This document shows positions 26,886 to 41,834 of a stretch of 64,000 nt of DNA, one piece after another. The first letter of the stretch is position 1. Each line of letters starts with the position of its first letter. Origin of the DNA: Agrobacterium salinitolerans (GTDB lineage: Bacteria > Pseudomonadota > Alphaproteobacteria > Rhizobiales > Rhizobiaceae); the NCBI RefSeq assembly GCF_002008225.1, contig NZ_MRDH01000021.1, forward strand, positions 62,001-126,000. The letters are read 5' to 3'. The position numbers and the translations under genes are program-made. A model generated the notes under the pieces. The model was not told the DNA's origin. It was given only the letters and a program-made list of their open reading frames with translations, and did not search any database.

Positions 26886-27206
26886 ATGTACACACGCTCG
26901 GCAATTTTCGAAGGCAGGATCCACCCCGGTCGGGAGGAGGAATTTTTCCGCATCGTCGAGGAAAAACTGCTTCCGGTCTGGAAACGCATGCCGAATGCGC
27001 AGGCCGTGCGGGTGATGCGTACCGAGCGCACGGATCCGGACGCGGCATCGATCATCATGGTGCAGGAAATCGACTATCCTTCGATGGAAGCTGTGGAGGA
27101 AGCACTGGTTTCACCGGTCCGGCTGGAAGGCCGGGTGCTGACGGATGAGATGATGAGCATGTGCGACGGACGTTTTTACCATCTGGTTTATAGCCGCATC
27201 GCATAA
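26886..27206 (+). CDS. small dimeric alpha/beta-barrel (ABM-like) protein
   Basis: This 106-residue protein has the alternating beta-alpha pattern of antibiotic-biosynthesis-monooxygenase/EthD-like ferredoxin-fold proteins, starting MYTRSAIFEGRIHPGREEEF. Such proteins act as small cofactor-free monooxygenases, mutarotase-like isomerases or binding proteins. GGGAGGA precedes the ATG at 26886; the longer in-frame reading starts inside the operator region. It is divergent from the importer and upstream of the LacI gene. The function is not identifiable from sequence alone. Confidence 0.65.
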   Translation: MYTRSAIFEGRIHPGREEEFFRIVEEKLLPVWKRMPNAQAVRVMRTERTDPDAASIIMVQEIDYPSMEAVEEALVSPVRLEGRVLTDEMMSMCDGRFYHLVYSRIA

Positions 27207-39333: not shown

Positions 39334-40296
39334 TCAGTTGCGCAGGCCAGTGGCGACGACGGAAATCTTGAAAGCGCCGTCCAGCGTCGGGTCGAAGGAA
39401 GCGCCCATCACCACATCGGTTTCTTCGCTGACCGCCTCACGCACCAGCGTCATTGCCTCATCGATCTCGTAAAGCGTCAGATCGTTGCCGCCGGAGATGG
39501 AAACCAGCGCACCCCGCGCTTCCTTCAGAGACGGTTCACCGAGAAGCGGGTTGGCGATGGCTGCCGCCGCTGCTTCCGAGGCGCGTTTTTCACCCTTGGC
39601 CTGTGCCGTGCCCATCAAAGCCCGGCCGCCATTTTTCATGACGTAGCGCACATCGGCAAAATCGAGATTGACCAGACCTTCGCGCAGGATGAGATCGGTA
39701 ATGCAGCGCACGCCAAGCGACAGGACCTTGTCGGCCGTCTTCAGCGCATTTTCGAAGGTCGTGCCGGCATCGGCAATGCGCAGCAGGTTCTGGTTTGGAA
39801 TGACGATAACGGTATCGGCCGTGTTGAGTAGGTTGGCGAAGCCATATTCGGCAGCCCTCATGCGGCGTGCGCCCTCGAAGCTGAAGGGAAGCGTGACGAC
39901 ACCGACGGTCAGGATGTTCTTTGCCCGGCAGGCTTCGGCAATAACGGGGGCAGCACCCGTGCCGGTGCCGCCGCCCATGCCGGCGGTGATGAAGCACATG
40001 TCGTAGCCGCTCAGGTGATCCATGATCTCGTCAAGGGAATCGATCGCCGCCTGTCGGCCCACCTCGGGATCGGCGCCCGCTCCAAGCCCGCCGGTCAGTT
40101 CGGAGCTGAGTTGCACCAACCGCGGCGCATTGGTTTTCTTCAGCGCCTGCGCATCCGTATTGGCAGCGATGAAATCGACGCCGCCAATGCCCTCGGCAAT
40201 CATGTTATTGATCGCGTTACCGCCACCGCCACCGACGCCGACGACGGCGATGTTGGGTGTGTTGCGGGCAATGGTGGCGCGCGGAGACTGGGTCAT
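39334..40296 (-). CDS. ftsZ: short FtsZ paralog lacking linker and C-terminal tail
   Basis: This 320-residue protein is a full FtsZ GTPase core: VGVGGGGGNAINNM near 18-31, NTDAQAL, the tubulin signature GGGTGTGAAPVIAE and the T7-loop region DFADVRYVMKNGGRALMG. It ends right after the core at SVVATGLRN, without the long linker and the conserved C-terminal peptide that binds FtsA and other partners in canonical FtsZ. Rhizobia and Agrobacterium carry such secondary FtsZ proteins beside the dcw-cluster gene. No ftsA or ftsQ is adjacent. The ribosome site is weak (AGAGAA). A modifier role in division is inferred. Confidence 0.92.
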   Translation of the reverse strand: MTQSPRATIARNTPNIAVVGVGGGGGNAINNMIAEGIGGVDFIAANTDAQALKKTNAPRLVQLSSELTGGLGAGADPEVGRQAAIDSLDEIMDHLSGYDMCFITAGMGGGTGTGAAPVIAEACRAKNILTVGVVTLPFSFEGARRMRAAEYGFANLLNTADTVIVIPNQNLLRIADAGTTFENALKTADKVLSLGVRCITDLILREGLVNLDFADVRYVMKNGGRALMGTAQAKGEKRASEAAAAAIANPLLGEPSLKEARGALVSISGGNDLTLYEIDEAMTLVREAVSEETDVVMGASFDPTLDGAFKISVVATGLRN

Positions 40297-40676: not shown

Positions 40677-41117
40677 ATGTTGGCAGACGTCTTACAACGA
40701 GAAACGGGTTACAGCACGCAGCAGCCGCGCGTGCTGATCGTTGAAGACGAATTCCTGATTGCCATGGATATAGAAGATTCCATCATGCAGGCCGAAGATG
40801 AAGCCGACGTCATCGGGATTGCCAACCGTCTGGATGACGCGATCGCGCTCGGCAGGAGCGCTGACGTCGCCTTTGTCGACGTCAACCTTGCGGACGGGCA
40901 GACCGGACCGGAAATCGGACGCAGACTGTCGGAAAACGGCGTCGTCGTCATTTTCATGACGGCCAATCCAGAAGTCGTTGTCAACCTTGGTGTCGGCGCT
41001 GGCGTTATTTCCAAGCCTGTACCGCAAGATGCGGTGGAGCAGTGCCTCTCCTATGCCATAGCCAAACGGGCCGGCACACATGCCGTCACCCCCATCGGGA
41101 TGCTGCCATTCGATTGA
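40677..41117 (+). CDS. single-domain response regulator (receiver only)
   Basis: This 146-residue protein is a CheY-like receiver with the acidic pocket VEDE, the phosphoacceptor Asp in FVDVNLADG, the Thr in FMTANPE and the Lys in ISKPVPQ. No output domain follows, so it must act through protein contacts. GGAGG precedes the ATG. The putative EcfG promoter suggests stress induction. No histidine kinase is nearby. It converges with the sRNA array on the opposite strand, and they share the hairpin at 41151-41180. Confidence 0.88.
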   Translation: MLADVLQRETGYSTQQPRVLIVEDEFLIAMDIEDSIMQAEDEADVIGIANRLDDAIALGRSADVAFVDVNLADGQTGPEIGRRLSENGVVVIFMTANPEVVVNLGVGAGVISKPVPQDAVEQCLSYAIAKRAGTHAVTPIGMLPFD

Positions 41118-41140
41118 GATTGACGCTGGAAACTCCCGGT

Positions 41141-41298
41141 AAAACAAAAAAGCCTGCCGCGGGAGGAGGTGCGGCAGGCTTTCTGAAAAGATGAACAGCG
41201 ATATGGGAGGAGGAAAACCGCTGTCCCCGGGGCAATCCATTGGGAGGAGGAGTAGGATTACCCGCATTACCAAAAGGATGTGGGAGGAGGTACATCGC
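41141..41298 (-). ncRNA. anti-Shine-Dalgarno sRNA array (CCUCCUCCC-loop, CcsR/cuckoo-like)
   Basis: On the minus strand CCTCCTCCC occurs four times (complement at 41282-41290, 41242-41250, 41205-41213, 41161-41169), each in a hairpin loop. The stems are 41277-41281/41292-41296 (5 bp), 41231-41238/41255-41262 (8 bp with one G-U), 41195-41200/41219-41224 (6 bp) and 41151-41160/41171-41180 (10 bp). The last is followed by TTTTTGTTTT and is a Rho-independent terminator. This matches the CcsR/cuckoo sRNAs of alphaproteobacteria, which lie downstream of DUF1127 genes, as here. The 5' end is not known, and it may be processed into several RNAs. Confidence 0.8.
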
Positions 41299-41464
41299 TT
41301 TCGATGATTGGAAGATAGCATTTTTCTGCGCATTTGATAGGCATAAGCTTGCAGCGCAGATATGCATTGAACGCATGGCGACTATCATCGCCCTTCGCAT
41401 CCGATTTCATCGCCGCCTGAGTATCTGGCGGACATTCACCGCGAAGCTTTCGATATCCCCGAAA

Positions 41465-41489
41465 CAAAAAACGCCCGCTGAGCGGGCGT
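41465..41489 (-). terminator. hairpin terminator after the DUF1127 gene
   Basis: ACGCCCGCT (41471-41479) pairs with AGCGGGCGT (41481-41489). On the minus strand TTTTTTGTTTC follows. It lies 33 nt after the DUF1127 stop and upstream of the sRNA array, so array expression would need read-through or its own promoter in 41300-41460. Confidence 0.75.
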
Positions 41490-41521
41490 TCGTATATTCA
41501 AATGAGGCGATATGGCCTTGA

Positions 41522-41668
41522 TTATTTGCCAACGGCGGCGCGGGCCACACTGGTGATCTGGCTGCGATCGATACCGAGATCGTGCAGTTCACGGGTGCTC
41601 ATACGGCCGAGTTCGTTGATGGTCTGACGATATTTGCGCCAGTTATTGAAGCTGCGTGCTACGTTCAT
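41522..41668 (-). CDS. DUF1127 small protein (CcaF1/YjiS-like)
   Basis: This 48-residue gene encodes a small basic protein that starts MNVARSFNNWRKYRQT and ends SVARAAVGK, with the DUF1127 core INELGRMSTRELHDLGIDRSQI. Such Arg-rich micro-proteins bind RNA or are stress-induced in alphaproteobacteria; in Rhodobacter the DUF1127 gene ccaF1 precedes the CcsR sRNAs. AAAGGGTAA precedes the ATG at 41668. Here it lies directly upstream of the four-hairpin array on the same strand, the same arrangement. Confidence 0.88.
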   Translation of the reverse strand: MNVARSFNNWRKYRQTINELGRMSTRELHDLGIDRSQITSVARAAVGK

Positions 41669-41834
41669 GACATTACCCTTTCTGAGGTTAAGGTGACGTC
41701 AGTAACATTTTCGTCCCGGCGTCTTCTGATGCGCTCTATATGCGCTTTCCGATGACGAATTAACAGGCAGAATAAGGCAATCCACCCATGCGCTGCATGC
41801 ACGGGTTCCGACCTGTGGCGTGCGAAAATGAGAA

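Follow-up and report, generated by a model that had tools for sequence, protein, structure and literature searches.

A predicted four-hairpin small RNA of the ar14/cuckoo type preceded by a candidate VtlR/LsrB-type box in Agrobacterium salinitolerans

In the window, the 64,000-nucleotide stretch of Agrobacterium salinitolerans DNA analysed in this study, an array of four hairpins lies on the minus strand between two protein-coding genes. One of these, a response regulator receiver gene on the plus strand (40677-41117; Pfam PF00072, NCBIfam NF009972), is convergent with the array. The other, on the minus strand (41522-41668; Pfam PF06568, 60.3 bits), encodes a small DUF1127 protein of 48 residues, and its stop codon lies 231 nt upstream of the first motif of the array. 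A terminator scan places a terminator-like hairpin after the DUF1127 gene (41465-41491, minus strand), and this hairpin is present in all 12 rows of an alignment that comprises the window and 11 relatives. Agrobacterium has extra short FtsZ proteins, and a 320-residue FtsZ homologue (TIGR00065, 375 bits) is encoded near the response regulator gene, at 39334-40296 on the minus strand of the window.

The array is built around the motif CCTCCTCCC, of which a letter scan recovered four exact minus-strand copies, at 41282-41290, 41242-41250, 41205-41213 and 41161-41169. The whole window holds five copies, the fifth lying far off at 26932, against a mean of 0.50 and a maximum of 3 in 100 shuffled windows, which bears out the four exact copies recognised in the first-pass annotation of this DNA. 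When folded, the minus strand of 41120-41320 reaches -70.4 kcal/mol, compared with a shuffled mean of -47.1 (z -6.0; none of 200 shuffles as good). All four motifs are left unpaired, each with a mean unpaired probability of at least 0.999, in agreement with the earlier proposal that every copy is displayed in a hairpin loop. Taking the hairpins in the order of the motifs just listed, the fold and the covariation described below support stems of 13 bp with one bulge in hairpin 1 (41269-41305), 9 bp in hairpin 2 (41230-41263), 10 bp in hairpin 3 (41193-41226) and 14 bp in hairpin 4 (41147-41184), all on the minus strand. The stem length of 5 to 10 bp given in the first-pass annotation is thus right for hairpins 2 and 3 and too short for hairpins 1 and 4, and its span of 41141-41298 was nearly correct, with hairpin 1 extending to 41305.

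The 3' arm of hairpin 4 runs into a T tract, as had been noticed before (there as a U tract closing the last hairpin), and the two together are likely to form the intrinsic terminator of the RNA. The terminator-scan list lacks this hairpin, its loop being 10 nt long and the limit of the scan 8. A block that the window shares with 11 relatives, and outside which the sequences diverge, combines with the matches to the ar14 model and to our model R1 (below) to delimit a predicted four-hairpin sRNA of the ar14/cuckoo type at 41144-41309 on the minus strand. The extent of the conserved block, the predicted fold and a -10 element resembling TATCT would put its 5' end at about 41305-41309 and its 3' end at about 41144.

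Relatives of the locus were located via the neighbouring response regulator protein, which yielded 16 named loci. The array is carried by 11 of these, all from Agrobacterium or Agrobacterium-like Rhizobium records, and ten of the 11 have four exact motifs, one motif being altered in the eleventh (L009). The other five loci (three from Rhizobium, one from Aurantiacibacter and one from Rhodospirillales) share the response regulator protein, and no array was found in the stretch retrieved at each. In the alignment of the window with the 11 relatives, the conserved part begins at the promoter box and ends at the terminator, and similarity declines beyond either end. Motif spacings differ by 1 to 3 nt among relatives. 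At the level of the genus, some match was detected in all 39 genomes, reaching at least 239 bits in 21 of them, own genome included, and four exact motifs were present in 25 of 30 loci taken from this search.

Compensatory change in the stems was assessed in 27 distinct rows, the window among them. Standard pairs fill 95.0% of the pair cells, against 38-52% when the 3' arms are slid, a control that preserves the relatedness of the rows, with the structure taken from the first row and hence favouring the observed pairing. Ten pairs show changes on both sides (shuffled mean 4.9) and 25 cells carry such a change (shuffled mean 6.7), values that none of 500 shuffles attained, a significance that is overstated because the rows are related. 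The number of further pair types was not above chance in these rows (361 of 500 shuffles as high). The compensated stems claimed from the single sequence are therefore upheld in its relatives. A broader stem test on arrays of at least three motifs, in which pairing over at least 5 bp was seen for 138 of 184 distinct hairpin flanks, against 26% with the right flanks re-dealt, mixes bacterial and viral arrays with some coding repeats, and we place no weight on it.

Comparison with Rfam assigns the array to RF02344 (ar14, or alpha-r14), whose full model, positions 1-123, matches 41145-41269 with 96.5 bits against a gathering cut-off of 58.8. The CcsR1 model (RF02791) scores 22.7 bits, below its cut-off of 65.3, and ar7 scores 35.2 bits, below its cut-off of 60. 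The CcsR/cuckoo design put forward in the first-pass annotation consequently stands as regards the cuckoo type, to which the ar14 score and the hairpin plan of SmelA099 (below) both point, but not as regards CcsR in the strict sense. The three hairpins of ar14 correspond to hairpins 2-4 of the array, with hairpin 1 as one extra hairpin upstream and outside the match, and the three-hairpin model of Rfam covers only part of these RNAs. Own genome contains two further ar14 members with three motifs each, on contigs C25 and C34, and in the family an ar14 match is found in 194 of 199 genomes, in 184 of them above the cut-off. The four-hairpin form was captured in a covariance model of its own, R1, which covers 41139-41314 in the window, itself one of the rows from which R1 was built. 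Full-length R1 matches of at least 97 bits occur in at least 26 of the 199 genomes, with 13 candidates scored per genome, and 22 of the 26 loci drawn from these matches, one per genome, have four exact motifs. The boundary in score is not sharp, in that locus L215, at 87.5 bits, also has four motifs. The 2015 paper on the cuckoo RNA family is said to have used a thermodynamic matcher as its family criterion.

The four-hairpin form itself is already known. A study of 2011 described two RNAs with CCUCCUCCC hairpins, three in SmelA075 and four in SmelA099, and reported as a proposal that they form one family with a varying number of hairpins (PMC3927594). A published table lists SmelA099 on the minus strand of pSymA at 1328175-1328334, as one stretch of 160 nt (PMC7143759). 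At this place pSymA of S. meliloti has four minus-strand motifs, at 1328319, 1328282, 1328246 and 1328200, the first of which follows a box, GCATGGCTGGGTT, at a distance of 74 nt. SmelA099 (smrA6) resembles the window locus in its four hairpins with CCUCCUCCC loops and its upstream box; it differs in being located on a megaplasmid, in the sequences of its stems and in having no DUF1127-like frame on the same strand within the 3 kb scanned. Its family model, RFMSmelA099, is characterised by four hairpins whose loops all contain CCUCCUCCC, which is the constitution of the window array, so that the latter is a further member of a form catalogued as one RNA of 160 nt. The earlier suggestion that the four tandem units are processed into several regulators finds no support in this single catalogued stretch; processing of the array could nevertheless take place, since SmelA075 is reported in several processed forms (PMC3927594). 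NfeR1 (SmelC397), the best-studied alpha-r14 RNA, which is activated by LsrB (PMC10746234), shares with the window array the loop motif, the stem-loop plan, a last hairpin that doubles as terminator and an LsrB-type promoter site, but like the ar14 model it has three hairpins instead of four.

Upstream of the array, 75 nt before the first motif, lies a candidate VtlR/LsrB-type box, GCATATCTGCGCT (41353-41365, minus strand), which matches the reported VtlR box consensus, GCAT-N3-TG-N3-T (PMC7486931). Of 48 distinct four-motif arrays, 44 have a box at 73-78 nt before the first motif; 2400 equally wide control windows, taken 100-400 nt upstream, contain none. With pSymA the count becomes 45 of 49, a figure that expresses conservation and not independent events, the boxed arrays being related and having been fetched by similarity. 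Among three-motif arrays the box is present in 9 of 44, against 9 of 2200 controls. Among the four arrays without an exact box, L128 deviates by a single base, and nothing resembling the box occupies this position in L151, L188 or L215. The GCAT of the box is at the same time the right half of a palindrome, ATGC-N7-GCAT (41362-41376, minus strand), which fits the T-N11-A rule of LysR-type sites and is found in every one of the 12 aligned rows, that of the window included. In the 45 boxed arrays the left half-site ATGC is exact at the LysR-type distance in 25, and TGC is present in 33. The likely -10 element is CTATCT (41313-41318, minus strand), TATCTT being kept in most rows, with no good -35 element. 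A sigma-70 consensus scan returned no promoter-like sites, an absence that would fit an activator-dependent promoter without being evidence for one.

The same type of box, here GCATGTCTGACCT, precedes abcR1 in own genome, where thioredoxin reductase, a LysR-family gene, abcR1, abcR2 and an arsR-like gene follow each other in this order, the outer two named from their translations. The order of genes around vtlR in strain C58 is reported to be the same, and abcR1 is VtlR-activated there (PMC7486931). AbcR1 and AbcR2 resemble the window sRNA in their motifs of the anti-Shine-Dalgarno type, and abcR1 also in its box, but they have a different structure and belong to a different Rfam family (suhB matches at C20). 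A third match to the abcR1-like box pattern GCATNTCTGNNCTGCA lies in own genome at C37:465246-465261, just downstream of a LexA-like frame. From the sequence evidence, the host-interaction regulator VtlR/LsrB appears to activate the four-hairpin form, a link that would join two lines of research that were published separately.

The position of the DUF1127 gene deserves consideration in this regard: 26 of 30 arrays have a DUF1127-like frame ahead of them in the same orientation. CcsR1-4 of R. sphaeroides likewise have CCUCCUCCC loops and a DUF1127 gene, ccaF1, upstream on the same strand; they are co-transcribed with ccaF1 and processed from its transcript, under an RpoHI/RpoHII promoter, and ccaF1 aids their maturation (PMC10253847). 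The RNA RS0680a is reported with two stem loops (PMC3927594). By extension, the window array might form the 3' UTR of the DUF1127 transcript and be matured by RNase E, aided by the DUF1127 protein, into several separate sRNAs. An arrangement of this kind may exist within the family: of 40 Rhizobiaceae ar14 loci sampled (one per genome, from the best-scoring 150), 12 have a DUF1127-like frame that ends 26-71 nt before the first exact motif. These 12 loci (L146, L161, L162, L164, L166, L168, L173, L176, L180-L182 and L184) look like cases of a CcaF1-CcsR-style common transcript, unlike the window locus. In the window the gap is 231 nt wide and contains the terminator-like hairpin that belongs to the DUF1127 gene, and the array is therefore not simply the 3' UTR of this gene in the manner of CcsR1-4. 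Moreover, the box keeps a fixed distance to the array while the DUF1127 gene lies anywhere between 172 and 323 nt away, the conserved promoter region is the array's own, and the CcsR1 score stays far below its cut-off. Taken together, these points make a CcsR-type origin of the window array unlikely. As for the proteins, CcaF1 is reported to bind RNA in Rhodobacter, and DUF1127 proteins of Agrobacterium to act by protein contacts with PhoR (PMC12501420). A second match to the box pattern, GCATGGGTGGATT (41779-41791, minus strand), lies some 110 nt ahead of the start codon of the DUF1127 gene; its function is doubtful, and we treat it as weak evidence, since a gel shift with VtlR in vitro showed no binding to the promoter of atu4669 (PMC7486931).

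A published RNA that might correspond to the window locus is VrsA (L4), a VtlR-activated sRNA encoded on the linear chromosome of A. tumefaciens C58. It is described as about 300 nt long and antisense to atu4670, and the VtlR site assigned to it lies between the 3' ends of the convergent genes atu4669 and atu4670 (PMC7486931). According to the same report, 17 genes in three loci (two transport loci and the denitrification genes) responded at least 3-fold to the deletion of vrsA; growth, tumours, biofilm and motility were not significantly affected. The window locus agrees with VrsA in the type of VtlR box and in the convergent-gene setting, and differs in that its sRNA is predicted to measure about 160 nt and to end before the response regulator gene. 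In the relative genome G204, which we take to be strain C58 with the homologous locus on its linear chromosome, the DUF1127 and response regulator genes lie on a contig of 2,075,577 bases with their 3' ends facing the box. The pattern GCATNTCTGNNCTGCA occurs in G204 once, about 50 nt upstream of the homologous sRNA. On balance, the window locus is probably the ortholog of VrsA. The main text of PMC7486931 contains no mention of NfeR1, ar14, DUF1127, Shine, hairpin or Rfam, and among the open full texts matched by a literature search VrsA occurs only in this paper and in an unrelated review, neither of which names NfeR1, cuckoo RNA or SmelA099, a link that the subscription literature may already have. 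The tags atu4669 and atu4670 do not occur in the main texts of PMC3738593, PMC4201532 and PMC10469942, and a literature search gave no match for atu4671-atu4673. If VrsA is an RNA of the window type, its 17 responsive genes would be the first target candidates, and a published RNA would gain a directly testable mechanism.

The structure of the array, its conservation, its family and its box lead us to regard it as very likely that the locus specifies a free-standing, trans-acting four-hairpin alpha-r14/cuckoo sRNA of about 160 nt, the probable ortholog of VrsA, which would be expressed from its own VtlR/LsrB-site promoter, end at its own terminator and block the start of translation of several mRNAs. 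Active VtlR/LsrB would, through the site in the promoter, raise the level of the sRNA, whose loops with unpaired CCUCCUCCC would pair with GGAGGAGG-like ribosome-binding sites and thereby prevent translation from starting; the four loops are probably redundant copies. That the loops should block GGAGGAGG-type sites is suggested by analogy with NfeR1, which is reported to repress ntrB via the same motifs at the translation start, the motifs being redundant and Hfq not needed (PMC10746234). Should this prove correct, VtlR/LsrB, a regulator needed for interaction with both plant and animal hosts, would control a widespread class of RNAs that block ribosome-binding sites.

The distribution of complementary sites in the genome bears on an alternative mode of action, in which the loops mimic the tail of 16S rRNA and, as a sponge or decoy, associate weakly with many ribosome-binding sites, so that they buffer translation instead of switching chosen genes. 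The presence of four identical copies and the small number of extended sites would suit such a role: the pattern GGGAGGAGG-N3-10-ATG occurs 5 times in the genome, against 2 for the pattern read backwards, and is not enriched, as a permuted 9-mer also gives 5. Extended sites do exist, in that GGAGGAGG-N4-9-ATG occurs 31 times against 5 for the reversed pattern, but this excess reflects mostly generic ribosome-binding sites, since the control AAAGGAGG is similarly in excess (18 against 3). NfeR1, with the same motif, is reported to silence defined mRNAs by base pairing, and we accordingly hold the sponge to be improbable beside a blocking of particular translation starts. Of the 31 sites, 30 had loci and one of these (L089) gave no script match; 15 of the remaining 29 start a frame of at least 60 residues. 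ABC or TRAP transporter genes with a plausible start make up 6 of these 15 frames, compared with 3 of 10 proteins scanned at the control ribosome-binding site (11 frames, two of them of one gene), with L229 and L232, seeming internal starts in transporter genes, left out of the count. Transporter enrichment among the 8-mer sites is thus not clearly above the control, and the target scans single out no genes.

That a coding sequence or a chance repeat explains the motifs, for instance through the 213-residue minus-strand frame at 40692-41333 that crosses the array, is exceedingly improbable in view of the covariation, of a motif count above all shuffles and of the fact that a large part of this frame runs opposite the response regulator gene. 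The spacing changes of 1 to 3 nt between relatives, which shift the frame, led us to reject any coding frame across the array.

With less confidence than for the locus itself, we moderately favour a broader evolutionary scenario. The four-hairpin cuckoo RNAs would constitute a distinct branch in the Rhizobiaceae, defined by a VtlR/LsrB-controlled promoter, and VrsA would be one of them, acting by loop-by-loop blocking of ribosome-binding sites. VtlR/LsrB would then govern host interaction partly via AbcR1 and the four-hairpin RNA, and phages would have taken three-hairpin members into their replication modules.

Cuckoo RNAs with three hairpins were observed in phage contigs of IMG/VR, for example at L029:8583-8702 (minus strand), L042:6623-6743 (plus strand) and L074:5255-5377 (minus strand), with similar others. 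The three-motif pattern matched in 62 viral contigs, several of which are coding repeats by eye, and a lenient stem criterion leaves 50 viral arrays, which still include a few coding repeats. A DNA helicase gene like that of the L029 phage is present in the retrieved stretch of 40 of these 50, and in 23 the array lies between phage DNA helicase and phage exonuclease genes. The ar14 cut-off is exceeded in 8 of 9 viral loci tested. Two viral arrays compared with GenBank phages gave no match, and among the literature matches listed in a search for prophage-borne ar14 none contains ar14. Plasmids also carry related sequences: a copy of the sRNA region covering 88% of the query at 87.4% identity is located at CP135083.1:209210-209492, in a 316 kb plasmid record of A. 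pusense. Among the 468 matching plasmid records, no other covers 80% or more of the query. Of these records, 326 are from Rhizobium and 72 from Sinorhizobium.
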